A stretch of DNA of 64,000 bases. Origin: Hylemonella gracilis ATCC 19624. Its GTDB lineage: Bacteria > Pseudomonadota > Gammaproteobacteria > Burkholderiales > Burkholderiaceae_C. Of this stretch, positions 4,966 through 19,465 are shown piece after piece (the stretch's first letter is position 1; each line of letters begins with the position of its first letter). The stretch covers positions 62,001-126,000 of the forward strand of contig NZ_AEGR01000029.1 of the NCBI RefSeq assembly GCF_000211835.1, written 5' to 3'. Made by a program: the position numbers and the translations under genes. The notes under the pieces are model-generated. The model ran no database searches. It saw only the letters and a program-made list of their open reading frames with translations, and was not told the DNA's origin.

Positions 4966-6048
4966 TCAGGGGCGATCAACGATCTCGATCCAGTTGGGCC
5001 CCTTGCCCACGGGGACGCGTTGGGCTTGGCTCAAGCGGCCGTTGTCTGGGTCGATGCGGTACAGCGTCACGGAATGCGAGAGCTGGCCGGCTGCCATCAG
5101 CCACTGGCCGGAGCTGTCGATCTGAAAACCGCGCGGTTGCTGCTCGGTCGCCTGGTGTCCGACCAGGGTCAGTGCGCCGCTGCCTGCGTCAACCCGCCAG
5201 ATCGCCAGGGTGCTGGAGGTGCGTTCACTGGTGTAGAGGAAGCGACCATCCGGGGTCAGATGCAAATCGGCTGCCCAGGGCTTGCCCGTGAAACCAGCCG
5301 GGAGTGTGGACCAATGTTGCTTGCGGCTCAATTGGCCTTTGGCGGCGTCAACCTCGAGCAGCTCGACGCTGGCGTCCAGCTCGCCGAGCAAATAGGCGTG
5401 TCGACCGTTCGGATGAAACACCAAGTGGCGTGGGCCGCTGCCAGGGCGCGCGGCCATGGCCGGCGGATCGTTGGGCGTGAGCTGGCCGGTGGCGGCGTCA
5501 AAGCGCCACTGCAGCACCTGGTCGGTGCCCAGGCTGGTGATGTACACGTTGCGGTTGGCCGCATCTGGAATGGCGGCGTGCGCGTTCTTGCCATTGGGCA
5601 CGATCTGCACGGCGGCGGCAGGCTTGCCAGCGGCATCGATGGGCGAGACGCTGGCGCGATGGCCGCCGTAGGATGCGGCGAAAAGCCAGCGCCCGCTGCG
5701 GTCCGTCGCGATGTTGGCCATGCTGTCGGGCAGCGCGGCACTGCCGAGCGGGCTCAGCTGTCCCGTGGTTGCATCGATCGTGAAGGCGGCGGCCGTGTAG
5801 GGCTCAGAGCGCAGGGCGACGTAGAGCTTCTTCTGGTCTGGGCTCAAGGCCAGCGGCATGGCGGTCCCGCCGACAGACACGGTTTGCAATGAACGCAGCG
5901 TGCCCTCACGCTTGTTCAACTCAAGCACGCTGATCTCGCGGCTGTCGGCGTTGCTGACATAAGCCGTGGCGGTGGTGGAAGTGGCGCAACCTTGCAGCAT
6001 CAGGCAAACCGCCGCGGCGGCTCCGCAGAAGAGTTTAGGGAAGGACAT
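4966..6048 (-). CDS. Lactonase-family beta-propeller lipoprotein, putative aldarolactonase
   Basis: A 360-residue protein of the 6-phosphogluconolactonase/carboxymuconate-cyclase seven-bladed propeller family, with repeated blade signatures such as [26 protein letters not shown] and [13 protein letters not shown]. In this operon the natural role is opening of the galactaro- or glucaro-lactone produced by uronate dehydrogenase. The N-terminus [20 protein letters not shown] followed by Cys21 looks like a lipoprotein signal with lipobox LMLQGC, which predicts membrane anchoring in the periplasm. That is unexpected for an enzyme acting on a cytoplasmic product. Located between a Bug receptor and garD. 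The family assignment is firm; the substrate is inferred from context. Confidence 0.75.
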
Positions 6049-6136
6049 GGAACAAGACTCCAGGTGGTCATCGTTGCAATCGTTTCAGAGAATTCAGCTC
6101 GGCGATTGGGAGGCCGTGCTCGGCCCTCCAAATCGC

Positions 6137-7144
6137 TCAGTCCGCCTTGATGCCCGCCGCCTTGATCACCTGGGCCCACTTCGCAACTTCCGCTTTCTGG
6201 TAGTCGGCAAGCTGGGCCGGCGTCATGGTGGACGAGACCATGCCAAAGCTCTTCAGGCGCGCCTGAATGTCCGGCGTGGCGATGATCTTCATGATTTCAG
6301 CGTGCAGTCGATCCACGATGGGTTTGGGCGTGCCGGCCGGCGCGAACACGGCTTGCCAGGAGCCCATGTCGAAGCCCTTCTGACCGGCTTCTGAAATGGT
6401 CGGCACATTGGGCAGCGAATCCAGTCGCTTGGAGCTGGTGACGGCGATGGGACGCAGCTTGCCGGACTCGATGTGCGGTCCCACGATCAGCGTGGTGTCG
6501 AACATCATGTCCACTTGACCTCCGATCACGTCCTGCACGGCTGGGCCGCTGCCCTTGTAGGGCACGTGGGTGAACTTCACGCCGGACTGGAATGCCAGCA
6601 GCTCCAGCGCCATGTGCATGGAGGTGCCCGTGCCCGCTGAGGCTGCCGACAGGCCGCCTGAGCGGGCCTTGCTGGCGGCCATCACGTCGGCCAGTGTCTT
6701 GTAGGGGCTGGATGAGGGAACCACCAACACCAGCGGCCCAGAGCCGAGCATGGCCACGGGCGTGAAAGACTTGATGGGGTCGTAGTCGATCTTGGCGTAC
6801 ATGCTCACATTGATGGCGTGCGAGCTGATGGTGCCGCCCAGGATGGTGTAGCCATCCGCAGGCGCTCGGGCCGCGATCGCGGAGCCCACGCTGCCGCCCG
6901 CGCCGCCCTTGTTGTCGATGATCACCGGCGTGCCCAAGGCCGTGCTCAAGGCTGGGGCAATCAGGCGAGCCAGCGTGTCGGTATTGCCACCAGGTGCGAA
7001 AGGCACCATGTAGGTGATGGCCTTGCCCGTGGGCCAGCTGCCCTGCGCGGCGGCGGGCAAGGCAGCGAACAAGCTGGCGCAGGCGCCACTCAGTAGCAGG
7101 GTGCTGGCAGCCAGAGAACGGCGGATCAGGTTGCGGCGTTGCAT
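6137..7144 (-). CDS. Bug/TctC-family tripartite tricarboxylate transporter receptor
   Basis: A 335-residue periplasmic solute receptor. The signal peptide starts MQRRNLIRRSLAASTLLLSG and probably ends at PAAAQG. The family's ligand-loop motif PFAPGGNTDTLARL and the second motif VPYKGSGPAVQDVIGGQVD are present. The start at 7144 is supported by GGAGA about 8 bases upstream; an in-frame ATG 38 codons further upstream lacks family similarity. It sits in the leftward operon between the glucarate-dehydratase-like gene and the lactonase. No TctA or TctB membrane genes are in the window. Ligand unknown; an aldarate or uronate is a reasonable guess from context. Arginine pairs (RR) near the N-terminus might also suit Tat export, but the motif is weak. 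Confidence 0.87.
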   Translation of the reverse strand: MQRRNLIRRSLAASTLLLSGACASLFAALPAAAQGSWPTGKAITYMVPFAPGGNTDTLARLIAPALSTALGTPVIIDNKGGAGGSVGSAIAARAPADGYTILGGTISSHAINVSMYAKIDYDPIKSFTPVAMLGSGPLVLVVPSSSPYKTLADVMAASKARSGGLSAASAGTGTSMHMALELLAFQSGVKFTHVPYKGSGPAVQDVIGGQVDMMFDTTLIVGPHIESGKLRPIAVTSSKRLDSLPNVPTISEAGQKGFDMGSWQAVFAPAGTPKPIVDRLHAEIMKIIATPDIQARLKSFGMVSSTMTPAQLADYQKAEVAKWAQVIKAAGIKAD

Positions 7145-7269
7145 GATTGTCTCCTTGTCGACGTGGTTGAAAGCATGGGGTCCGGGCGTATCACGACCGC
7201 TTCGGGTGACGGTCTTGGGTGGCACGCTGAGTGTGGCATCTGTGGGAATCAGCGTCACGGGATTGGGGC

Positions 7270-8565
7270 TCAGAAGCGCGGCTGCACTCCCGTGAAGGCC
7301 GGGTCGTACTTCTTCATCTGTCCAAGGTCATCCCGGTTGCGGATGCCGCAGCGCAGGTAGTTGTCGTGCAGGCGGGCCAGGGCCTCGCGGTCAATGGTCA
7401 CACCCAGGCCCGGGCCAGTGGGCACGCGCAGGCTGCCGTTCTCGAACTTCAGACGGCCCCCCGTGACGATCTCCTCGTCCTGCCAGGGGTAGTGCGTGTC
7501 GCAGGCGTAGGTCAGCAGCGGCACGCTGGCGCAGAGGTGCGTCATGGCCACCAGGCTGATGCCCAGGTGCGAGTTGCTGTGCATGGACAGCCCCAGGTCG
7601 AAGGTGCGGCAGAGCATCGACAACTGCTGCGTGGCGCGCAGGCCGCCCCAGTAGTGGTGGTCGCTCAACACGATCTTCACCGGGCAGCCCATGTCGGCGT
7701 TGCGGCGGAATTCCGCGAAATCGGTCACGACCATGTTGGTGGCCAGGGGCACGTCACATTCGCGCGCCACGGCAGCCATGCCGTCCAGGCGAGGCGCCGG
7801 ATCTTCGTAGTACTCCAGCACGCCGTGCAGCTGCTGCACGATCTTCAGGCTCGTTTCGACGGTCCAATTGCCGTTGGGGTCGATGCGCAGCGGCGTGCCG
7901 GGGAAGGCCTGCGCCAGCGCGAGGATGCCCGCGGCCTCCTGCTCGGGCGGCAGCGCGCCCGCCTTGAGCTTGATGCTCTGGAAGCCGTATTGGTCGATCA
8001 TGCGCCGCGCTTGCGCGACGAGCTGCTCAGGCTTCAGCGCCTCGCCCCAGGCATCGGGCGCATAGGGCTTTTCGATGTGCTCGGCGTACTTGTAGAACAG
8101 GTAGGCCGAGTAGGGCACGCGGTCACGCGCCGCGCCGCCCAGCAAATCCACCACGGGCGCGTTCGCCATCTGGCCTTGCAGGTCCATCATGGCCACTTCG
8201 AAGGCGCTGATCACCTTGGCCACGGTCTTGGAGACATGCGTGCCGGGCGCCAGCGAGACCTGTTGCGTCAGGAACTCCGAGGTGGTTTGCTTCGGGGGCG
8301 TGACCAGGGCACGCACGCGCGCTTCCATCTCGTTCAGCGACCAGGGGGACAAACCTTGGAGCGCGGGCGCGGCCTTGGCCAGCGCCTCCAGCATGGGCAG
8401 ATCGCCGTAGCTTTCGTTGATGCCGACCAGACCAGCGGCTGTCTCGATTTCGATGATCGAGCGCAGCGCCCAGGGTTCGTGGATGCCCGCCGCGTTCAGC
8501 AGCGGCGGGTCGCGGAAGGCGATGGGCGTGATGCGGACATGCCGGATGGCGTGCGAGGTACTCAT
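7270..8565 (-). CDS. Enolase-superfamily glucarate dehydratase-like protein
   Basis: A 431-residue mandelate-racemase/glucarate-dehydratase subgroup enzyme. The expected catalytic pattern is visible: KxK (Lys199, Lys201 in SIKLKAG), metal ligands Asp229 (RIDPNG), Glu254 (YYEDPA) and Asn277 in ATNM, and the general base His329 (SMHSNSHLG), with Asp302 nearby. It therefore looks active. It is clearly divergent from the canonical GudD encoded at 16572-17906 and resembles the GudX-like or related acid-sugar dehydratases. Its likely reaction is dehydration of an aldarate (glucarate, idarate or galactarate) to a keto-deoxy acid. The gene is 34 bases downstream of dctM in the leftward operon. The exact substrate cannot be read from sequence. 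Confidence 0.82.
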   Translation of the reverse strand: MSTSHAIRHVRITPIAFRDPPLLNAAGIHEPWALRSIIEIETAAGLVGINESYGDLPMLEALAKAAPALQGLSPWSLNEMEARVRALVTPPKQTTSEFLTQQVSLAPGTHVSKTVAKVISAFEVAMMDLQGQMANAPVVDLLGGAARDRVPYSAYLFYKYAEHIEKPYAPDAWGEALKPEQLVAQARRMIDQYGFQSIKLKAGALPPEQEAAGILALAQAFPGTPLRIDPNGNWTVETSLKIVQQLHGVLEYYEDPAPRLDGMAAVARECDVPLATNMVVTDFAEFRRNADMGCPVKIVLSDHHYWGGLRATQQLSMLCRTFDLGLSMHSNSHLGISLVAMTHLCASVPLLTYACDTHYPWQDEEIVTGGRLKFENGSLRVPTGPGLGVTIDREALARLHDNYLRCGIRNRDDLGQMKKYDPAFTGVQPRF

Positions 8566-8599
8566 GAAGCGCGGAAAACGTGAAGGATGTTCTGGGGGC

Positions 8600-9892
8600 T
8601 CACTTGATCAGCATGTGCGGTAGCCACAGCGAGAAGCCCGGCACGTAGGTCACCAGCATCAGACACACCGTGAGCGCGCCGTAGAAGGGCAGGATGGAGC
8701 GCATCACCTGCCCGACCGATATCTCGCCAATCGCACAGCCGACAAACTGCGTCACCCCCACCGGCGGGGTGTTCAAACCCAGCGCGCAGTTGATCAGCAT
8801 GACGATGCCGAACTGCACCGGGTCCATGCCGAACTGAACCGCGATGGGCAGAAAAATGGGCGTGCAGACCAGGATGGTGGCGGCCATGTCGAGGAAGGTG
8901 CCGAGCAGGAACAGCAAGATGTTGATCATCAGGAAGATCACCCAGGGCTCGCTGCTGATGCTCTGCATCAGCTCGCCGGTCTTCTGCGGCACTTCGTACA
9001 GGGCCATGAAGTAGCCGAAGGCCGAGGAGATGCCGATCAGCAGCAACACCACGCCCGTGGTCTTGCAGGCTTTCGCGCAGGCCTTCATGAAGTCCTGCCA
9101 ATTGAGCGAGCGGTACACCAAGGCCGTGACCAGCAAGGCCCACAGCACCGCGACCGACGCCGACTCGGCGGGCGTGAAGATGCCTGAGAGAATGCCCGCC
9201 AAGATGATGACGACGATCAGCAGGCCCGGAGCGGCGGCCAACGCGGTGCGCAGTACTTCGCGCCAGCCGGGGAACTTGCCGCGGGTGGCATAGCCGCGCT
9301 TGACCGCGACGTAATAGGCCGCGCCCAGATTGCACAGCGTCAGCAAGATGGCGGGGATGATGCCGGCCAGGATCATGGCGAGCACGCTGACCGAGGCGAT
9401 GCCCGTGGTGGCCAGCGTGAAGATGATGATGTTGTGCGAGGTGGGCATCAGCACGCCGACCAGGGCGGCGTGGGTGGTGACGTTGACGGCGTAGTCGGCG
9501 TCGTAACCCTCCTTCTTCATCAGCGGAATCATCACCGAGCCCATGGCGGACACGTCTGCCAAGGCGGACCCCGAGACACCGCCGAACAGCGTGCAGCCGA
9601 CGACGTTGCTCATGCCCAGGCCACCGCGCACGTGGCCCACGAGGCTGTTGGCGAAGCGCACGATGCGGTCGGCGATGCCGCCGTAGAGCATGAGCTCACC
9701 GGCGAACACGAAGAAAGGGATCGCCATGAAGGAGAACACCTGCATGCCGCCGACCATCTTTTGGAAGACGATGGGTACCGGCACGCCCGCGTAGAGCACG
9801 GTGGCGACCGAGGCCAGGCCGATCGAGAACGCCACGGGCACGCCGACGAGCAGCAGGGCAATGAATGTGATTGAGAGTACGGCCAGTTCCAT
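8600..9892 (-). CDS. dctM: TRAP transporter large permease subunit
   Basis: A 430-residue, almost entirely hydrophobic protein of the DctM family, the Na+-coupled transport channel of a tripartite ATP-independent periplasmic transporter. About 11-12 transmembrane helices can be picked out, with the family signatures FGGVSGSALADVSAMGSVMI and LGLNTPPVGVTQF. It lies between the small subunit (65 bases upstream on its strand) and the glucarate-dehydratase-like gene, in the order dctP-dctQ-dctM. With uronate dehydrogenase as the first gene of the same operon, import of hexuronates such as D-galacturonate or D-glucuronate is the most likely role; this is inference from context. Confidence 0.92.
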   Translation of the reverse strand: MELAVLSITFIALLLVGVPVAFSIGLASVATVLYAGVPVPIVFQKMVGGMQVFSFMAIPFFVFAGELMLYGGIADRIVRFANSLVGHVRGGLGMSNVVGCTLFGGVSGSALADVSAMGSVMIPLMKKEGYDADYAVNVTTHAALVGVLMPTSHNIIIFTLATTGIASVSVLAMILAGIIPAILLTLCNLGAAYYVAVKRGYATRGKFPGWREVLRTALAAAPGLLIVVIILAGILSGIFTPAESASVAVLWALLVTALVYRSLNWQDFMKACAKACKTTGVVLLLIGISSAFGYFMALYEVPQKTGELMQSISSEPWVIFLMINILLFLLGTFLDMAATILVCTPIFLPIAVQFGMDPVQFGIVMLINCALGLNTPPVGVTQFVGCAIGEISVGQVMRSILPFYGALTVCLMLVTYVPGFSLWLPHMLIK

Positions 9893-9957
9893 GAAGAGCG
9901 CCTTGTCGGGAAAATTTCAGTGCAGCAATCGATTGCGTGATTCGCCGATGCCGCGAA

Positions 9958-10497
9958 TCAGTACCAGGCGGGCTCGACTTCTTCGCCGCGCAGCAGGGCC
10001 AGGATGTGTTCGAAGGAGAACATCACGATCAGCACGCCGGCGATGACCAGCGCAAGGTAGTCGAGTCCCGCGGGCACGCCCAGCAGGGGATCGAGTTCGT
10101 CCCACTTGAGACGGGTCCAGAGCCAGCCGCTAGAGACCATGATGGCGCCGAACAGGGCGATCAGGGCGTGAATCAGCACCTCCACTTTCAGGCGCATTGA
10201 TTCGGGCAGCAGCGTGACCAGCGATTCCAGGCCAATGTGGCCCGCGTCGCGCACGCCCACGGCCACGGCCAGGGCCGTGATGTAGAGCACCAGCTCTAAC
10301 GCCAGCGCTTCGGTCCAGGTGGGGGTGTCATTGAAGATGTAGCGGCCGATCACCTGGGTCTGCACCGACAAGATCAGCATGATCAGGCCCACGATGGCCA
10401 GAATCAGACTCGTCTTGCTGAGCAAGGCACAGAATCGGGTGTAGAGGTGTTTGGCTGGCGGGCGATGGGGCGAGCCAGCGTTGGGCGTGAAAGTCAT
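9958..10497 (-). CDS. dctQ: TRAP transporter small permease subunit
   Basis: A 179-residue DctQ-family membrane protein with four predicted helices, starting after a ~25-residue cytoplasmic N-terminus. The segment TQVIGRYIFNDTPTWTEALA matches the conserved region between helices 1 and 2 of this family. It pairs with the large permease to form the membrane complex that receives ligand from the DctP receptor. It is separated from dctM by 65 bases and from dctP by 95 bases, all on the same strand. The last residues, RGEEVEPAWY, form a short charged tail. Confidence 0.9.
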   Translation of the reverse strand: MTFTPNAGSPHRPPAKHLYTRFCALLSKTSLILAIVGLIMLILSVQTQVIGRYIFNDTPTWTEALALELVLYITALAVAVGVRDAGHIGLESLVTLLPESMRLKVEVLIHALIALFGAIMVSSGWLWTRLKWDELDPLLGVPAGLDYLALVIAGVLIVMFSFEHILALLRGEEVEPAWY

Positions 10498-10592
10498 GGG
10501 GGCGTCGTCGGAAGGACGGAGAGGGAAACAGGCGCACGTCCTGTGCAGCTACGGCTGCGTGGGACGTGCGCCTTGAGTCGCAGTCTTGGGGG

Positions 10593-11570
10593 TTACTTGG
10601 TGTCCTGGACAGCCTTCACCAGGCGCTGCAGGTCAGGCGTGGTGATGAACTTGTCGTAGACCGGCTTCATGGCGTTCTGGAACTCGGCCTTGTTCACGTC
10701 CTTGACGAGCGTGGCGCCGGCCTTGGTCACGATGTCGATGGCCTTGGCGGTCTGCTCGTCCCACTTTTGACGTTGGAACTTCACCGATTCCTTGGCGGTT
10801 TCACGGAACAGGGCTTGGTCAGCGGGCGACAGCTTGTCGAAGAAGGCCTTGGAGATCACCAGCATTTCCGGGGCCATCGAGTGCTCGGTGTACGAGTAGA
10901 ACTTCACCGCTTCGTAGTGCTTGAAGCCTTCGTAGGAGGGCTCGTTGTTCTCGGCAGCGTCGATCACGCCGGTCTTGAGGGCCGTGTAGACCTCGGCGGT
11001 GGGCATGGGCGTGGCGTTGGCGCCCATGGCGCTGGCCACGGCCACCCACAGGTCCGACGGTTGCACGCGGATCTTCATGCCCTTGACGTCGGCGAGGGTG
11101 CGCACCGGCTTCTTGGAGTAGATGGAGCGCGCGCCGCTGTCATAGAAGGCCAGGCCGACCAGCCCCTGGTGTTCGCAACCCTTGAGGATTTCCTCGCCGA
11201 TCGGGCCGTCCAGCGACTTGCGCATGTGCGAGATCGAACGGAACAGGAAGGGCATGGTGGGCACCAGGCTCTTGGGGCAGATGGCGTTGAGCGAGCTGAT
11301 GTTGACGCGGTTCATTTCCAGCGCGCCGATCTTCACCTGGTCCAGGGTTTCCTTCTCGGAACCGAGGGCGCTCTTGTTGAAGACCTTGATCTTGTACTTG
11401 CCGCCGCTGCGCTTGTCGAGCTGTTCGCTCATGTAGCGCACGGCCGCGACGGTGGGGTAGTCGTCGCTGTTGTGCACGTCAGCCGAGCGCAGCTCGACGG
11501 CGGACGCCGCGCCGGCCAGGCCGATGGCGGCCAGCAGCGCGACGAGGGGACGCAAGGATTTCTTCATCAT
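10593..11570 (-). CDS. dctP: TRAP transporter periplasmic solute receptor
   Basis: A 325-residue DctP-family binding protein with a Sec signal peptide ([20 protein letters not shown], cleavage near ASA). The conserved core includes [20 protein letters not shown], with the arginine that typically salt-bridges the carboxylate of the ligand, followed by [20 protein letters not shown]. The start at 11570 is supported by AGGAGA a few bases upstream (11577-11582); the upstream ATG at 11648 would run into the 3' end of the udh gene. It is the second gene of the operon behind uronate dehydrogenase. TRAP receptors in this genomic setting commonly bind glucuronate/galacturonate; that is the favoured assignment here but is not proved. 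Confidence 0.92.
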
Positions 11571-11610: not shown

Positions 11611-12438
11611 TCAGGTCTTGTCGAAGGGGCCTTGCTTGACAAAGCCACCGCCGTGGTGGATCAGGCCAGCGTCCTTCGTGTCGATCACGGGCTGGCGGGC
11701 TTCGACGGCGGCGCGGAAACGCTCCGAGCTGTCTTGCGGGCGATAGCCGATGTGCCGCGCCTTGCTGTTGTCATACCAAGCGGTGGCGTTGTCGCTGATG
11801 CCATAAATCACGCTGTGGCCGACCACTGGTGCGGTCAGCGAGGACACGACCAGGCGTTCCAGGTCGTCGTAGCTCATCCAAGTGCCGAGCATGCGGCGGT
11901 CGCGCGGCTCAGGGAAGGACGAACCAATGCGCATGGACACGGTCTCGATGCCGTAGCGGTCCCAGTAGAACTGGGCCAAGTTCTCGCCGAACGCCTTGGA
12001 CAGGCCGTAGTAGCCGTCGGGGCGCATGGGGACGTCGGTACCGACCACTTCGTCTTGGCGGTAGAAGCCCGTGACGTGGTTGGAGCTGGCGAAGACGATG
12101 CGCTTGACGCCATGGCGGCGCGCGCCTTCGTAGACGTTGAAAGTGCCCGTGATGTTGGCGGGCAGAATTTCTTCGAAGGAATGCTCGGTCGAGATGCCGC
12201 CAAGGTGCACCACGGCGCTGACGTCCTTGAGCAGAGCGTCCACGGCGGCCTTGTTTTCCAGGGCCACGGGCATGACTTCCTCCCCAGGTCCGGCGGCACC
12301 CAGGTCCGCGATGTCGGACAGGCGCAGCACGTCGCAGTAGGCCTTGAGGCGGCGACGCAACTCCCGGCCCAGGCCGCCGGCGGCACCGGTCAACAGCAGG
12401 CGAGGAAAGCGCAGGGAAGTGGAATGGGCAGCGGACAT
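11611..12438 (-). CDS. udh: Uronate dehydrogenase (NAD-dependent)
   Basis: A 275-residue short extended SDR protein. The Rossmann glycine motif [14 protein letters not shown] is at residues ~14-27; the catalytic Tyr-Lys pair lies in [13 protein letters not shown] (YxxxK), with the serine of [11 protein letters not shown] upstream. These features match bacterial uronate dehydrogenases, which oxidise D-galacturonate and D-glucuronate to the corresponding aldaro-lactones with NAD+. The rest of the locus supplies lactonase, aldarate dehydratases and the steps to 2-oxoglutarate, supporting the call. It is the first gene of the leftward operon, divergent from the GntR regulator across a 123-base region that holds promoters and an operator-like palindrome. 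No strong ribosome-binding site is visible before the ATG. Confidence 0.88.
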
Positions 12439-12480: not shown

Positions 12481-12509
12481 ATCAGATAAAGTCGCGTGAC
12501 AACTTGCAA
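12481..12509 (-). promoter_or_regulatory. Putative promoter of the leftward udh operon
   Basis: Reading leftward, a TTGCAA hexamer (12509-12504) is followed after 17 bases by TCTGAT (12486-12481), each matching sigma-70 consensus at four of six positions. Transcription would begin about 36 bases before the udh start codon. TTGCAA is self-complementary, so the same hexamer can act as the -35 of the divergent gntR promoter. The prediction is by eye only. Confidence 0.4.
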
Positions 12510-12532
12510 TTTGTTATCAGTTGTCGTACAAC
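12504..12532 (+). promoter_or_regulatory. Putative gntR promoter
   Basis: TTGCAA (12504-12509), a 17-base spacer and TACAAC (12527-12532) form a plausible sigma-70 promoter ~30 bases ahead of the gntR start. The -10 element lies entirely inside the operator-like sequence at 12514-12532, a geometry suited to autorepression. Confidence 0.5.
12514..12532 (+). promoter_or_regulatory. Putative operator for the FadR-type regulator (site 1)
   Basis: The 19-base sequence TTATCAGTTGTCGTACAAC lies between udh and gntR. It contains the imperfect palindrome TTGTCGTACAA and recurs, in inverted orientation with 17 of 19 bases identical, at 13411-13429 before kdgD. FadR-subfamily regulators typically bind short palindromes with a TnGTnnnACnA-like core, which fits TTGTCGTACAA. 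The regulator encoded at 12562 is the obvious candidate to bind it. Confidence 0.6.
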
Positions 12533-12561
12533 AATCTTCGTGCCTCACAGAAGGCTTGTCA

Positions 12562-13326
12562 ATGCCAAGTAACTCAGGGGAATCCCCAGTGCACACTGCT
12601 TTCCGTCGTCGTCCCCGAACCTTGGCCCTGGAGTTGGTCGAGTCGCTCGGCGACCGCATCCGCGACGGTCGCATCGCTTCCGGTGACAAGCTACCGACCG
12701 AGGCGGCCATCATGGCCGAGTTCGGTGTCAGCCGCACGGTGGTGCGCGAAGCCATTTCCAAGATGCAGGCGGCCGGCTTGGTGGAGACCCGGCATGGCAT
12801 CGGCACTTTCGTGGTCGGTTTGGGGGACAGCGCGGCCTTTCGCATCGCGCCGGAGCAACTGGGCACGCTGCGCGACGTGATCGCCGTGCTGGAGCTGCGC
12901 ATCGGCATCGAGACCGAGGCGGCGGCGCTGGCGGCCACCCGCCGCACCCAGCGCAATCTTGAGGAAATGCGGTCCTCGCTGGATGCCTTCGCGGCGGCCT
13001 TGGTCGAAGGGCGCGACGCCGTGGGGCCCGATTTCCAGTTTCATCTGGAAATCGCGCGCGCCACGCAAAACCCGCATTTCGCTGAATTCATGGGCACCTT
13101 GGGGGCCATGATCATCCCGCGGGCGCGTCTGGGTGCGGGGGAGGACGCGCAGGAGGAGGCGTTGCGCTATCTGCGGCGCGCCAACGGCGAGCACGAGAAC
13201 ATCTACGACGCCATCGTCAGCCAAGACCCGGAAGCGGCCCGCGCCGCGATGCGCACCCACTTGGCCAACAGCCGGGAGCGCCGCCGCCGCGTGGCCCAGC
13301 TGTCCGGGGAATCTGGCGCTAAATAA
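12562..13326 (+). CDS. FadR-subfamily GntR transcriptional regulator of uronate/aldarate catabolism
   Basis: A 254-residue regulator. The winged helix-turn-helix is at ~residues 20-85, with SGDKLPTEAAIMAEFGVSRT and VVREAISKMQAAGLVETRHG typical of GntR proteins; the all-helical FCD ligand domain follows (residues ~100-240), with the metal-binding Asp/His pattern probably involving FQFHLEIARAT and ANGEHENIYDAI. The start at 12562 (MPSNSGESP) is preferred because the upstream ATG at 12496 lies inside the promoter. The gene sits between the two arms of the catabolic locus, and paired operator-like sequences lie before it and before kdgD. It is most likely a repressor released by a uronate, an aldarate or a keto-deoxy intermediate. 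Confidence 0.85.
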   Translation: MPSNSGESPVHTAFRRRPRTLALELVESLGDRIRDGRIASGDKLPTEAAIMAEFGVSRTVVREAISKMQAAGLVETRHGIGTFVVGLGDSAAFRIAPEQLGTLRDVIAVLELRIGIETEAAALAATRRTQRNLEEMRSSLDAFAAALVEGRDAVGPDFQFHLEIARATQNPHFAEFMGTLGAMIIPRARLGAGEDAQEEALRYLRRANGEHENIYDAIVSQDPEAARAAMRTHLANSRERRRRVAQLSGESGAK

Positions 13327-13392
13327 GAGAAAAAGACCGGGTGCCAGCCGGTTCAAGGGGTGCTCGGTGCTTGCCCGAGGGTTTGCCTGAGG

Positions 13393-13420
13393 TTGACAGA
13401 TGGTGTTCATGTTGTACGAT
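13393..13420 (+). promoter_or_regulatory. Putative kdgD operon promoter
   Basis: A perfect -35 TTGACA (13393-13398) is followed after 16 bases by TACGAT (13415-13420, four of six consensus bases). The -10 falls within the operator-like sequence at 13411-13429. Transcription would start ~13427, giving a ~90-base leader before kdgD. Confidence 0.55.
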
Positions 13421-13429
13421 GACTGATAA
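13411..13429 (-). promoter_or_regulatory. Putative operator for the FadR-type regulator (site 2)
   Basis: Read on the minus strand this is TTATCAGTCATCGTACAAC, matching the sequence at 12514-12532 at 17 of 19 positions. It overlaps the predicted -10 of the kdgD promoter. A further half-site-like TCGTACAA occurs at 13499-13506, next to the kdgD ribosome-binding site, and may be chance. Confidence 0.6.
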
Positions 13430-13519
13430 GTTGTGCGTTCTATCGCACATCCCGTCTCGCATTCCCCATTCCTCACCGCTCGCGTACCTCGCGGGCATTC
13501 GTACAAGCTCAGGAGTCCC

Positions 13520-14431
13520 ATGAATCCGCAAGAACTCAAATCCATCATGTCTCACGGCCTGTTGTCGTTCCCGATCACGGACTTCGACGCGCAGGGTGAG
13601 TTCCGCCCCAAGACCTACATCGAGCGCCTGGAGTGGCTGGCCCCGTACGGCGCGAGCGCGCTGTTCGCCGCCGGTGGCACGGGTGAGTATTTCTCGCTGT
13701 CCGGTCCCGAGTACGGCCAGGTCATCAAGACCGCCGTGGACACCTGCCGCGGCAAGGTGCCGATCATCGCTGGCGCTGGCGGCCCGACCCGCACCGCCAT
13801 CGCCCATGCACAGGAAGCCGAGCGCCTGGGCGCGCACGGCATCCTGCTGCTGCCGCACTACCTGACGGAAGCGGGGCAGGAGGGCTTGATCGCCCACGTG
13901 GAGGCCGTCTGCAAGAGCGTGAAGTTCGGCGTCATCGTCTACAACCGCGACCGCACCCGCCTCACGCCCAACTCGCTGGCCATCTTGGCTGAGCGTTGCC
14001 CCAACCTGATCGGCTTCAAGGACGGCGTGGGCAACATCGAGATCATGTCCTCCATCTACATGAAGATGGGTGACCGCTTCGCCTACCTGGGTGGCCTGCC
14101 GACCGCGGAGGTCTATGCCGCGGCCTACAAGGCGCTGGGCACGCCGGTGTATTCGTCGGCTGTGTTCAATTTCATTCCCAAGACCGCGATGGAGTTCTAC
14201 AAGGCCGTGGCCGCCGACGACATGGCGACCCAGCATCGCCTGTTGAAGGATTTCTTCATGCCCTACCTGAACATCCGCAACCGCGTTGAGGGTTATGGCG
14301 TCAGCATCATCAAGGCCGGAGCCAAGATCGTGGGTCACGACGGCGGTCCGGTGCGCGCGCCCTTGACCGACCTCACGCCGGCCGAGATGGAAGAACTCGC
14401 CGCGCTGATCAAGAAGCTCGGCCCGCAATAA
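13520..14431 (+). CDS. kdgD: 5-dehydro-4-deoxyglucarate dehydratase
   Basis: A 303-residue class I aldolase/DHDPS-family enzyme that dehydrates and decarboxylates 5-keto-4-deoxy-glucarate to 2,5-dioxovalerate (2-oxoglutarate semialdehyde). The Schiff-base lysine is Lys167 (IGFKDGVGN), the catalytic tyrosine is Tyr141 (IVYNRD), and the carboxylate-binding GGTGEYFSL is at 52-60. Its length equals that usual for KdgD. The start at ATG 13520 has AGGAG 4 bases upstream; the long open frame upstream is not part of the protein. It is the first structural gene of the rightward unit after the regulator and joins the products of both garD and gudD. Confidence 0.93.
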
Positions 14432-14550: not shown

Positions 14551-15525
14551 ATGAAGAAACGTGCATTCCTGTTCGGCCTGTTCACCGCGCTGGCCTTGGC
14601 CGGCGCATCGGTGTTCGCGCAGCCGACTGCTTACCCCAGCAAGGCGATCCGCATCGTCGTGCCATTTCCCGCTGGAGGCACCTCGGACGTGCTGGCCCGT
14701 CTGATCGGCGTCAAAATGAGCGAGAAGTTCGGCCAGCCCGTGATCGTCGAGAACCGCCCGGGCAGCGCGGGCAACCTGGGTGCCGATCTGGTGGCCAAGT
14801 CGCCAGCCGATGGGCACACCTTTGTGCTGATGGACGTGGGCAACCTGACCATCAGCCCCGCGCTGTACAAACTGCCCTTTGACGTGCTGCGCGACTTCGC
14901 GCCCGTGGCCATGGTCGGTTATTCGCCCCACTTGCTGGTGGTGAGCACCCAAGTGCCTGCTGACAACCTCGCTGACTTCGTCAAGTACGCCAAGGCCAAT
15001 CCCGGCAAGCTCAATTTCGCCGCGGCAGCGGGCATGGGCAGCGCCACCCACTTGGCGGGCGTGCAGTTCGCCCGCCGCCTGGGCATTGATTGGAGCTATG
15101 TGCCTTACAAGGGCGGTGCCCAGGCCATGACCGATCTGGTGGGGGGGCACATGGACGTGACCTTCAACGGCATGGTCGCCACCTACCCGCACGTCAAGTC
15201 CGGCAAGCTCAAGCTGCTGGCCGTTTCCAGTGCCAAGCGTTGGAGTGAACTGCCCACCGTGCCCGCGGTGGCCGAGAGCCTGCCTGGTTTCCTGACCGGC
15301 AGCTGGCAGGGCCTGCTGGCACCCGCGGGTACGCCGCCTGCCGTGATCCGCGCGGTGCACGACGAAGTGCTGCGCATCACGGCCTTGCCCGAAATCCGTG
15401 AAAAACTCCAGACCCTGGGTTTCGAGCCCTCGCAGATGAGTCCCGCCGAGTTCGGCACCTGGCTCAAGGCCGAGATTCCGGCCATGGCCAAGATCGTGAA
15501 CGACGAGAAAATCACTGTCGAATGA
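14551..15525 (+). CDS. Bug/TctC-family tripartite tricarboxylate transporter receptor
   Basis: A 324-residue periplasmic receptor with signal peptide MKKRAFLFGLFTALALAGAS, cleaved near VFAQ. The Bug motifs PFPAGGTSDVLARL (ligand loop) and VPYKGGAQAMTDLVGGHMDV are intact. An AAGGAGA element precedes the start. Followed after 31 bases by a second Bug receptor; the two are similar in length but clearly different, so this is an old duplication rather than a recent one. Its position between kdgD and gudD suggests that it binds an aldarate such as glucarate or galactarate, but Bug receptors are often orphaned from their permeases and substrate prediction is weak. Confidence 0.88.
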   Translation: MKKRAFLFGLFTALALAGASVFAQPTAYPSKAIRIVVPFPAGGTSDVLARLIGVKMSEKFGQPVIVENRPGSAGNLGADLVAKSPADGHTFVLMDVGNLTISPALYKLPFDVLRDFAPVAMVGYSPHLLVVSTQVPADNLADFVKYAKANPGKLNFAAAAGMGSATHLAGVQFARRLGIDWSYVPYKGGAQAMTDLVGGHMDVTFNGMVATYPHVKSGKLKLLAVSSAKRWSELPTVPAVAESLPGFLTGSWQGLLAPAGTPPAVIRAVHDEVLRITALPEIREKLQTLGFEPSQMSPAEFGTWLKAEIPAMAKIVNDEKITVE

Positions 15526-15556
15526 AGCGGCCCTGGCGCTCAACCGGAGAAACACC

Positions 15557-16513
15557 ATGAAAAAGACGTTGTTGACTTTTCTGTTGGCGATCAGCGCGAG
15601 TGTTGGCGCCTGGGCCTGGCCTGACAAGCCGGTCACCCTGCTGGTGCCGTTCCCGCCGGGAGGCTCCACCGACCTGATCGCGCGCACGCTCGCGGCCAAG
15701 TTGCAAGAAAAGCTCGGCGGCACGTTCATCGTGGACAACAAGGCCGGAGCCACTGGCACCATCGGTGCCGCCCAGGTCGCGCGTTCAGCGCCGGACGGCC
15801 ACACCATCTTGGTGGCTTCGCTCGGCCCGTATGTGATCGCTCCGCACCTCCTGGCCAAGGTGCCGTATGACGCGCTCACGGACTTCGACTACATCACGGT
15901 CGCCGTGCAGGCCCCCAATGTGCTCGTGGTGCCGGCGGTTTCGCCGCACAATTCCCTGAAGGATGTGCTGTCCTATCTGCGCGCCAATCCGGACAAGATG
16001 ACCTTCGCGTCGTCCGGCAGCGGCAGCAGTGACCACCTGACTGCCGAGCTCTTCTGGCAGCAGACCAAAACCTCCGGCGTGCACGTGCCCTACAAGGGCG
16101 GTGGCCCGGTGATGACGGACCTGCTGGGCGCCCAGGTGGACTCGTCCTTCATGAACATCAACACCGCCATGCCGCAGATCAAGGCGGGCAAGCTCAAGGC
16201 CTTGGCCATCACCAGCGCCAAGCGCTCTCCGCTGCTGCCCGAGGTACCCACCCTGGAAGAATCGGGCATCAAGGATGCCAATGTCTATTCTTGGCAGGCC
16301 ATCGCAGCGCCCAAGGGTTTGCCCGCCGCGATCAAGACCAAGTTGCATGCGGCCATCGTGGCGGCGCTCAACGAGCCGGATGTCAAACCCAAGTTGCTGG
16401 AGTTGGGCTTTGAGATCGTGGGCAACACGCCCGCCCAATTCACTGCTTACCAAGCCGCCGAGTTCGCTCGCTGGAAGAAGCTGATCGCGGATCGCAAGAT
16501 CACGGCCAACTGA
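15557..16513 (+). CDS. Bug/TctC-family tripartite tricarboxylate transporter receptor
   Basis: A 318-residue periplasmic receptor, second of a tandem pair. The signal peptide [20 protein letters not shown] is followed by [20 protein letters not shown], the family's N-terminal strand and ligand loop; [19 protein letters not shown] is the second loop. A GGAGAAA sequence precedes the ATG. It lies 58 bases ahead of gudD. No TctA/TctB membrane partner is in the window, so the membrane part must be elsewhere if it transports; some Bug proteins act instead as sensors. The ligand is inferred only from neighbours. Confidence 0.88.
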
Positions 16514-16571
16514 TTTCCTTGTCCATCACCACGGTTTTTTTCGAATCGCCCTGGATCCCATTGTCGAACCC

Positions 16572-17906
16572 ATGTCCAAGCACTCCACTCCCGTCATCAC
16601 CGAATTGCGCGCCGTGCCCGTCGCAGGGCAGGACAGCATGTTGCTCAACCTGTCGGGCGCGCACGCACCGTATTTCACGCGCAACCTGCTGATCCTGCGC
16701 GACAGCGCGGGTCGCACGGGCGTGGGCGAGGTGCCCGGGGGCGAGAAGATCCGCCAGACTTTGGAAGACGCCGCGGAATTGGTGGTCGGCCAGCCGCTGG
16801 GTGATGTGCAGGCGGTGCTCAACGCCATGCGCGCGCGTTTCGCCGACCGCGACGCGGGTGGGCGCGGACTGCAGACTTTCGATCTGCGCACCACCATCCA
16901 CGCCGTGACCGCGGTGGAAAGCGCCATGCTGGATTTGCTGGGGCAGCACCTGAACGTGCCCCTGGCCGCCTTGCTGGGCGAGGGCCAGCAGCGCGCCTCG
17001 GTGGAGATGCTGGGTTACCTGTTTTTCCTCGGTGACCGGCGCAAGACCGACCTGCCCTACCGCGAGGAGTCGCGTTCAGATGACGCTTGGTTCCGTCTGC
17101 GCAATGAAGTCGCGATGACGCCCGAGGCCGTGGTGCGACTGGCCGAGGCCGCGCACGCCAAGTACGGCTTCAATGACTTCAAGCTCAAGGGCGGTGTGCT
17201 GCGTGGCGACGAAGAGGTCGAAGCGGTGATTGCCTTGCACGAGCGTTTCCCGCAGGCCCGCGTGACGCTGGACCCGAACGGCGGCTGGTTGCTCAAGGAT
17301 GCGATCCGGCTGGGTCAGCGCATGCGCGGCGTGGTGGCCTACGCTGAAGATCCCTGTGGCGCGGAAGAGGGTTTCAGTGGCCGTGAGGTCATGGCCGAGT
17401 TCCGACGCGCCACGGGCTTGCCCACGGCCACCAACATGGTGGCGACCGATTGGCGCCAGATGGTGCACGCGCTTTCGCTGCAAAGTGTTGATATTCCCTT
17501 GGCCGACCCCCATTTCTGGACCATGGCCGGCTCCGTGCGCGTGGCCCAGACCTGCCGCGATTGGGGCTTGACCTGGGGCTCGCATTCCAACAACCACTTC
17601 GACGTCTCGCTGGCGATGTTCACGCACGTGGCTGCCGCGGCGCCGGGCAAGGTCACGGCCATCGACACGCACTGGATCTGGCAGGACGGCCAGCGCTTGA
17701 CGAAGAACCCGCTGCAGATCGTTGGGGGCCATGTGCGCGTGCCCTCGAAGCCGGGATTGGGCGTCGAGTTGGACATGGCCGAAGTCGAAAAGGCGCACCA
17801 GCTCTACCTGCAACATGGTTTGGGCGCGCGCGACGACGCCGTGGCCATGCAGTACCTGGTTCCTGGCTGGAAGTTCGACAATAAGCGTCCCTGCCTCGTG
17901 CGCTGA
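16572..17906 (+). CDS. gudD: D-glucarate dehydratase
   Basis: A 444-residue enolase-superfamily enzyme converting D-glucarate (and often L-idarate) to 5-keto-4-deoxy-glucarate. It tracks E. coli GudD very closely over its length, for example [38 protein letters not shown] and [10 protein letters not shown]. Catalytic residues are in place: Lys204 and Lys206 (FKLKGG), the metal-binding DPNGGW and AEDPCG loops, ATNM, and His338 in WGSHSNNH. The start at 16572 follows a weak ribosome-binding site. Its product is the same as that of GarD and feeds KdgD. A second, divergent family member is encoded at 7270-8565. Confidence 0.95.
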
Positions 17907-17971
17907 TTGCCGGTTCGCGACAACGATGCACATTCCCGCGGCCTGACTGCCGCGTTTTTCCTGGACTTCTC

Positions 17972-19465
17972 ATGAGCACCACTTTCTCCTCTTACAACGC
18001 TCGCACCGGTGAGGTGCTGTCCACCCTGAATGCCTCCACGGCGCAGGACATCGACGCTGCCTGCACGGCCGCCGCCGCGGCTTTCCCGCTCTGGCAAGCC
18101 AGCAGCGGCGCGCAGCGCGCCACCTTGCTGCGCGCCTTGGCCCAGGGGCTAGAGACCGAACGCGAGGCCCTGATCGCACTGGCCGACCAGGAGACTGCGC
18201 TGGGACTGCCGCGCCTGTCGGGTGAGCTGGACCGCACGGCCTTCCAACTGCGCCGTTTCGCCGACATCGCCGAGCGTGGCGTGCCTTTCGAGTTCGTGGA
18301 CGACCCCGCCGTAGCCGGCGCTCCGCCGGCGGGCCATCCGGCCATGCAACGCTGGAGCGTGCCGCTGGGTCCGGTGGCCATGTATGCGGCCAGCAATTTC
18401 CCCTTCGCTTTCTCGGTACTGGGTGGCGACACGGCCTCGGCCCTGGCGGCGGGTTGCCCCGTCGTGGTCAAGGCGCATCCGGGCCATCCGCGGCTCTCGC
18501 GCCAGGTGTTCGACATCATCCAGCGCACGCTGAGCGCTCAGGGCTTGCCGGCAGGTCTCGTGGGGATGGTGCAGGGCATCAGCAACGAAGTGGGCGTGCA
18601 ACTGGTGCGCCACCCCGCGATCGCTGCAGCCGCCTTCACCGGGTCCACGCGCGGCGGCGCTGCCTTGTCCGCCGAGGCTGCGGCCCGTCCGCGCCCGATT
18701 CCCTTCTACGGTGAACTGGGCTCGATCAACCCGGTCATCGCCTTGCCGGCCGAGCTCCAGGCCAAGGGCGCCGACCTGGCGACCGCCTTGGCCGGTTCCA
18801 TCGCCCTGGGCTCGGGCCAGTTTTGCACCAACCCCGGCGTTATCGTGTTGATCGATGGCCTCTTGCCCGATGGCAAGTCCATCAACGACGGCTTTGTCGC
18901 TCAGCTGGCCCAGGCTTTGGGCGGGCAAAAGCCCCATGCCATGCTGACGCAGGGCATGCGCAAGAACTTCGCCGCAGGTGTGGAACATTGGGCCGAGGCG
19001 GGCGCCACCCTGGTGTTGCACCAGCCCGCGCCGCTGGAGCAACCGCCCCATCCAGAATTGGCGCAGGTCACTGCCGCGCAGTTCATCGCCAAGTCCGTGC
19101 TGCGCGAGGAAGTCTTTGGCCCCAGCAGCCTGGTGGTGCGCGCGGCCAGCGCGGCCGAGGCTTTGCAAGTGTTGCAAGCCGTCGGCGGTAGCCTGACCGT
19201 GACCGTCTGGGGCGCGCAGGCTGAAAGCGCCGAGGTGCAGAGCCTGGTCCGTGGCGCGATGGCGATTGCGGGCCGCGTGCTGTTCGCGGGCGTGCCGACG
19301 GGCGTGGCCGTGACGGCAGCGCAGCAGCATGGTGGCCCCTGGCCCAGCAGCAGCCGCCCCGAGAGCACCTCGGTCGGTGACGCGGCACTGGCGCGCTTCC
19401 TGCGTCCGGTGGCTCTGCAGGACGCACCCGCTTGGCTCACGGCACGGCAGGGTCGGCCTCTCTGA
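17972..19465 (+). CDS. 2,5-dioxovalerate (alpha-ketoglutarate semialdehyde) dehydrogenase
   Basis: A 497-residue aldehyde dehydrogenase. The catalytic cysteine is Cys285 in GSGQFCTNPG and the general base is Glu248 in YGELGSINPV; both contexts are those of the ketoglutarate-semialdehyde dehydrogenase group rather than of betaine or succinate-semialdehyde dehydrogenases. It oxidises 2,5-dioxovalerate, the KdgD product, to 2-oxoglutarate, usually with NADP+. This completes the route from uronates to the TCA cycle. It is 65 bases after gudD and is the last gene of the rightward unit, which is closed by two tandem intrinsic terminators. Confidence 0.9.
   Translation: MSTTFSSYNARTGEVLSTLNASTAQDIDAACTAAAAAFPLWQASSGAQRATLLRALAQGLETEREALIALADQETALGLPRLSGELDRTAFQLRRFADIAERGVPFEFVDDPAVAGAPPAGHPAMQRWSVPLGPVAMYAASNFPFAFSVLGGDTASALAAGCPVVVKAHPGHPRLSRQVFDIIQRTLSAQGLPAGLVGMVQGISNEVGVQLVRHPAIAAAAFTGSTRGGAALSAEAAARPRPIPFYGELGSINPVIALPAELQAKGADLATALAGSIALGSGQFCTNPGVIVLIDGLLPDGKSINDGFVAQLAQALGGQKPHAMLTQGMRKNFAAGVEHWAEAGATLVLHQPAPLEQPPHPELAQVTAAQFIAKSVLREEVFGPSSLVVRAASAAEALQVLQAVGGSLTVTVWGAQAESAEVQSLVRGAMAIAGRVLFAGVPTGVAVTAAQQHGGPWPSSSRPESTSVGDAALARFLRPVALQDAPAWLTARQGRPL

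Follow-up and report, generated by a model that had tools for sequence, protein, structure and literature searches.

Conserved operator-like sites on both sides of a GntR-family regulator gene in a uronate/aldarate locus of Hylemonella gracilis, and a recurrent difference between them

Several bacterial regulators of sugar-acid and dicarboxylate metabolism have been described that resemble the system reported here. GguR is a GntR-family regulator of galactarate/glucarate and hexuronate genes that is clustered with TctABC, and its regulon in Halomonas HL-93 includes Udh and a hexuronate transporter (PMC5507952). DhdR of Achromobacter denitrificans represses a dicarboxylate pathway and has a footprinted 13-bp operator, GTTATCAGATAAC (PMC8651671), while DgoR of E. 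coli is a FadR-type repressor of a sugar-acid operon whose sites overlap the promoter (PMC12288454). The E. coli FCD regulator NanR recognises several direct half-sites, with three dimers on (GGTATA)3 (PMC8012715). Most sites of the FadR group are composed of boxes TKGT/ACMA with 3 nt between GT and AC, and weaker neighbouring boxes are already described for the GntR family, Suvorova et al. (2015) having placed them 7-12 nt from the operator centre (PMC4494728).

The window analysed here, a stretch of 64 kb from the Hylemonella gracilis genome, contains a gntR gene flanked by two arms of genes (Table 1), which from their strand and spacing probably form a left-arm and a right-arm operon. Together we take these genes to be the oxidative uronate/aldarate route. 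The cut-offs of the curated NCBIfam models were not reached by the udh product, and the gudD product (16572-17906) scores 866 bits with TIGR03247 against a cut-off of 829. The enolase-superfamily protein of the left arm (7270-8565, minus strand) has structure matches near "putative glucarate dehydratase" and scores 241, far below the cut-off of 829, with the glucarate dehydratase model; its activity is probably aldarate-related but other than that of the gudD product. The window also has an extra tctC (14551-15525) between kdgD and the second tctC, and in its nearest named relative, Hylemonella gracilis Niagara R (locus L001), where the regulator is 97% identical, the second tctC directly follows kdgD (5887-6005).

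Table 1. Coordinates, in the window, of the regulator gene, candidate operators, candidate promoter elements and pathway genes.
Feature	Position	Strand	Description
Operator 1 (udh/gntR side), candidate	12513-12532	+	GTTAT-CA-GTTGT-CGT-ACAAC; conserved upstream of gntR in relatives
Operator 1 parts	13-bp core 12520-12532; outer half-site 12513-12517	+	
Operator 2 (kdgD side), candidate	13411-13430	-	CTTAT-CA-GTCAT-CGT-ACAAC on the minus strand; conserved downstream of gntR
Operator 2 parts	core 13411-13423; outer half-site 13426-13430	-	first base of the outer half-site is C, not G
gntR, presumed binder of both operators	12562-13326	+	PF00392 and PF07729 above cut-off; conserved in relatives
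Candidate gntR -10, TAAAGT	12487-12492	+	33 nt before the operator 1 core
Candidate udh -35, TTGACA, weak	12558-12563	-	by eye; no good -10 at 16-18 nt
Predicted kdgD promoter	13393-13420	+	TTGACA (13393-13398), 16 nt, TACGAT (13415-13420); consensus match 10/12
udh, uronate dehydrogenase; first gene of the left arm	11611-12438	-	uronate dehydrogenase structures, E 4e-84 to 1e-78
Remaining left arm: dctP, dctQ, dctM, enolase-superfamily dehydratase, tctC, 7-bladed lactonase	4966-11570	-	
kdgD, 5-dehydro-4-deoxyglucarate dehydratase; first gene of the right arm	13520-14431	+	TIGR03249, 430 bits against a cut-off of 374
Remaining right arm: two tctC, gudD (glucarate dehydratase), aldehyde dehydrogenase	14551-19465	+	

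The gntR product combines an N-terminal GntR winged helix (PF00392, 75 bits against a cut-off of 27) with a C-terminal FCD effector domain (PF07729, 90 bits against 24). Residues D157, H161, H211 and H233, presumably the Asp and His residues of the FCD metal site, are invariant in 57 aligned sequences, comprising the window, 52 of 77 stop-free orthologues and 4 more distant sequences. Loci L021, L059 and L080 were omitted from this alignment on account of one or two stop codons within the matched stretch; a stop is also found inside the regulator match of some other regulator-bearing genomes of the family, and frameshift, decay or an alignment gap are all possible. The NCBIfam models for NanR (101 bits against a cut-off of 260), ExuR (87 against 396) and UxuR (70 against 442) did not reach their cut-offs. 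An initial examination of the DNA without database searches, hereafter the sequence-only reading, assigned the protein to the FadR subfamily, and this holds at the level of the FCD domain. Effector domains of the FadR type have seven C-terminal helices and those of the VanR type six; the structure model of the gntR product (pLDDT 79, pTM 0.57) has six, the first of them long enough for two, and its nearest folds include both FadR-type and VanR-type proteins. DhdR is the nearest solved relative by both sequence and fold (9jpj and others, DNA-bound DhdR), with modest full-length TM-scores of 0.44/0.52, and the effector domain alone fits well (9jpk, 2.5 A). NanR provides the second nearest distinct fold.

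As with GguR, the regulator clusters with galactarate/glucarate and hexuronate genes (PMC5507952), and on gene context it may be an orthologue of GguR. The DhdR operator shares the GTYRT-N3-AYRAC plan of the window's core, although the proteins are ~31% identical, the DhdR pathway is that of D-2-hydroxyglutarate and its operator is described as a single inverted repeat (PMC8651671). IR1 of DgoR contains ATTGTAGTACAAC, which is identical to GTTGTCGTACAAC at 11 of 13 positions, but DgoR has two close inverted repeats at one promoter, whereas the window has one composite site on each side of gntR (PMC12288454). In contrast to the NanR sites, the window's operators combine a direct half-site with a core inverted repeat. 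This extra half-site, centred 11 nt from the operator centre, is comparable with the weaker boxes of Suvorova et al., while an exchange of half-sites between arms and its link to a -10, as described below, are not mentioned in the available part of that survey (PMC4494728). Our literature search, which had subscription papers largely outside its scope, found no paper on this operator in Burkholderiales.

The sequence-only reading had reported two inverted copies of a 19-mer, TTATCAGTTGTCGTACAAC, flanking gntR. On searching the 64-kb window we recovered both at exactly the positions given, one on the plus strand without mismatches (12514-12532) and one on the minus strand with 2 mismatches, or 17/19 identity (13411-13429), and no third copy at up to 3 mismatches; 100 shuffles of the window gave zero copies, a chance expectation of 0. 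When the whole genome (3,618,708 bases in 115 contigs) was scanned with the degenerate pattern TYRTNNGTYRTCRTACAAS, exact matches were confined to the two places flanking gntR. Four more places appear at 2 mismatches, and these look like chance because the reversed control pattern gives 6; no further sites in this 3.6-Mb genome rise above chance.

Conservation beside gntR was assessed in the best 80 of 176 regulator relatives plus the window. One locus (L020) lacks the downstream region, leaving 81 upstream and 80 downstream regions, and identical flanks were collapsed before sites, half-sites, -35 and -10 elements were counted. In this set 58 of the 81 upstream regions contain a site within 4 mismatches of TCATCAGTTGTCGTACAAC (mean 0.1, maximum 2, for 20 letter-shuffled seeds), and 59 of the 80 downstream regions one within 4 mismatches of TTGTATGTCATCGTACAAC (0 for shuffled seeds). 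Orientation is nearly constant too: in the same set, when full flanks were required and as many as 7 mismatches allowed, 72/73 upstream sites are on the plus strand and 65/67 downstream sites on the minus strand. These counts are not independent because the genomes are related. A lack of conservation upstream of orthologous genes, the outcome that the sequence-only reading had said would speak against its proposal, was thus not what we observed. Among the best 80 of 176 relatives, the strict upstream core is present at all 46 loci with a divergent udh and at 22 of the 34 loci without a detected divergent udh (12 of 34 are without it), a distribution that fits autoregulation. The downstream site persists whether kdgD, gudD, either tctC or an aldehyde dehydrogenase gene follows. 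The strict form of the downstream core, which misses sites with GACAT instead of GTCAT, is absent from 10 of 32 kdgD-followed loci (best 80 of 176), 8 of these 10 having a variant site. Both cores are absent from the Sphaerotilus loci L006, L051, L052, L066 and L067, which encode a regulator 68-73% identical to that of the window and in which no divergent udh was found.

Judging by information content and by the offsets of the half-sites, we rejected the 19-mer as the natural unit and replaced it by a 13-bp core with one extra half-site. The core is an inverted repeat, GTYRT-CRT-AYAAC, with three bases between the boxes. Among the best 80 of 176 relatives plus the window, a third half-site, GTYRT, begins exactly 7 nt before this core in 47/63 upstream sites, with 8 nt in 9 more, and exactly 7 nt before it in 51/56 downstream sites; these counts and those of the half-site exchange below use the strict core, which passes over sites with GACAT for GTCAT. 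The core of operator 1, GTTGT-CGT-ACAAC, fits the TKGT/ACMA rule with 3 nt between GT and AC, while in operator 2 one box agrees well with this rule and the other, TCAT, weakly. The polarity and regular step of the half-sites are consistent with binding of more than one dimer per operator. We also considered a further, fourth half-site at 14 nt before the core, which is weak: in the same set of best 80 of 176 plus the window, GT is found there in 28/63 upstream and 3/56 downstream sites, and the shared flanks of the upstream sites give other GT peaks (20/63 at 29 nt and 15 at 34 nt).

The two operators differ from each other in a manner that recurs in the relatives. Among the sites of the best 80 of 176 relatives plus the window, the inner half-site is TTGT in 59/63 upstream as against 2/56 downstream sites, being TCAT in 53 of the latter, and the outer half-site is TTGT in 0/63 upstream as against 47/56 downstream sites. 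An inner TCAT changes TACGAC on the opposite strand to TACGAT, a usable -10, and such a -10 is possible within the core in 53/56 downstream and 1/63 upstream sites of this set. In the window itself the outer half-site is TTAT at both operators, and the exchange is visible in the inner half only. Judged by these counts, the two mismatches between the copies are a clade-wide signature and not noise, and the outer half-site may compensate for the inner one. The downstream sites of L042, L043, L047, L053, L054, L055, L062 and L073 keep TAYGAT on the promoter strand, but GACAT takes the place of GTCAT in their inner half-site, which gives the impression of a half-site decaying around a maintained -10.

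On the kdgD side, the overlap of the operator with a -10 that the sequence-only reading had proposed is confirmed as a consensus match, the TACGAT of the predicted promoter lying inside operator 2. A TTGACA-like -35 (at least 5/6) occurs at a spacing of 16 in 12/63 sites, no other spacing tried giving more than 2 (best 80 of 176 plus the window), and the -35 is not recognisable in most relatives. The equivalent overlap proposed for the gntR side is not confirmed, as no promoter of at least 9/12 overlaps operator 1 and the recurring -10-like hexamers lie outside it. These hexamers are found on the plus strand 32 or 33 nt before the core in 37/68 loci and on the minus strand 7 or 8 nt after it in 31/68, with a maximum of 7 of 68 at other offsets and both together in 19/69 (best 80 of 176 plus the window throughout), counts that are not independent because many of the loci are Acidovorax. 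The plus-strand hexamer alone is present in the window, where the minus-strand hexamer of the relatives was not found. We have moderate confidence that operator 1 is not placed on a -10 but has one of two face-to-face promoters on either side of it. A weaker reading is a gntR promoter TTGCAA-17-TACAAC, matching 8/12 by eye and reading into operator 1; TTG occurs at about the position of TTGCAA in several relatives.

The gntR product is probably a local, autoregulated, GguR-like repressor of the FadR type (GntR/FCD), and we consider it likely that this protein occupies the two sites, keeping gntR itself, the divergently transcribed udh operon and the kdgD operon repressed until an inducer is present. 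It would bind operators 1 and 2 through the FadR-type 13-bp repeat and the third half-site 7 bp away. At operator 2, on the kdgD -10, bound repressor would exclude RNA polymerase; at operator 1, between the face-to-face promoters, it would block both near their start points, and a uronate or aldarate, or a product of these, would release it. What we observe are the sequences, their conservation, their linkage to pathway genes and their co-occurrence with the regulator gene; binding by the gntR product, repression as opposed to activation, the effector, the start points and the operons are what we infer. The original proposal of one regulator governing both arms and itself has the backing of conserved sites and of regulator co-occurrence (see below), while its placement of site 1 on a -10 does not find support as stated and binding is a prediction. 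It is unlikely that the same regulator acts from these sites mainly as an activator, or activates one arm and represses the other. GntR-family regulators can activate and the udh/gntR-side promoters are weak by consensus, but operator 2 covers a -10, the fusion to a -10 in 53/56 downstream sites (best 80 of 176 plus the window) is a repressor position, and operator 1 is downstream of both candidate promoters.

A more elaborate version of the repressor model can be offered tentatively, as a possibility that we would not expect to hold in full. The operators might be polar arrays of GTYRT half-sites at 7-bp steps that end in one inverted half, share one orientation with respect to gntR and load more than one dimer. 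In such arrays the conserved TTGT/TCAT exchange would fuse the kdgD-side operator to its -10 and give the two arms different affinities. If this were true, udh/gntR and kdgD would respond at different inducer levels.

Motif and regulator are strongly associated across the family. The regulator (E up to 1e-50) was detected in 139 of 299 genomes and the exact motif in 93 of 299 (the reversed control had 5 matches in the same table), with the motif present in 92/139 regulator-bearing genomes versus 1/160 where no regulator was found (Fisher 3e-40, relatedness being ignored); this single genome, with the motif and no regulator match, is 76% complete. From the 47 of 139 regulator-bearing genomes without the exact motif we hand-picked a second set of 20, in which a core-like 13-mer is found upstream in 18, that of L165 being doubtful. 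GTYRT is located at 7 nt on the same side in 10 of these 18 sites and on the other side in 0, and the 40 flanks of this set contain 26 perfect GTYRT-N3-AYRAC cores against 0.1 expected. Representatives L152, L156, L164 and L165 resemble the GACAT-type sites.

Among the matches listed outside the window's own genome, 99/148 sites have a regulator match at a distance of at most 400 bp, and of the 78 regulator genes compared with the listed sites 29 are flanked by one on both sides. Relatives of the window's genes are present at 28 of the 29 loci L091-L119 of the family scan, all outside its own genome. The exception, L106, has its site (995-1013) directly before a gene encoding a family-28 glycosyl hydrolase, a family to which polygalacturonases belong. 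When 20 sites away from a regulator match, or without one nearby, were fetched, pathway genes were found within about 2 kb of 16, the other four being accompanied by a pectate lyase (1), an ABC-permease domain (2) or nothing recognised (1). The pectate lyase case is L135, where the motif (2037-2055) precedes the gene. The L106 and L135 sites suggest that the regulon there reaches pectin breakdown, and a regulon of uronate and pectin use across the relatives would be the natural reading of these placements.

In many motif-bearing genomes the regulator is only 48-58% identical to that of the window, and some carry two related regulators, which indicates that the motif belongs to a broader clade; in two-regulator genomes either protein may bind a given site. 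A class-wide search of 274 genomes (E up to 1e-40) identified two regulators besides the window's own (L121 and L122). In L121 GTTGT occurs three times in tandem, at 7-bp steps and leading into CAG-ACAAC (~1405-1431), before a regulator 56-58% identical to the window's, while L122 yielded just loose motif matches.

A regulator other than this gntR product might bind the sites, since binding by the gntR product is predicted from sequence and a second related regulator exists in some genomes. We give this still less credence than activation, as the motif accompanies this regulator in 92/139 genomes versus 1/160, 99/148 sites (among the matches listed) have a regulator match no more than 400 bp away, and the geometry of the core agrees with that of the regulator's family. 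An origin of the copies as a repeat by chance, or as the termini of a mobile element, which two inverted copies ~900 bp apart around one gene superficially resemble, is in practice excluded by the chance expectation of 0, by conservation over 80 loci with differing neighbours (best 80 of 176) and by the occurrence of sites singly and away from gntR at pathway genes.

Repression by the gntR product from both operators would make this locus a testable local regulon in which one regulator acts through two sites on two operons (of seven and five genes in our reading) that run from uronate dehydrogenase to aldehyde dehydrogenase and include transporters. The paired-operator switch is of an ordinary type, and the conserved difference between the copies is its notable part, which looks like a natural case of a promoter hexamer displacing one operator half-site, with the adjacent half-site staying strong. 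Across the family, the motif can aid the annotation of genes for uronate and pectin use, and aldarate biosensors could be built with the sites.
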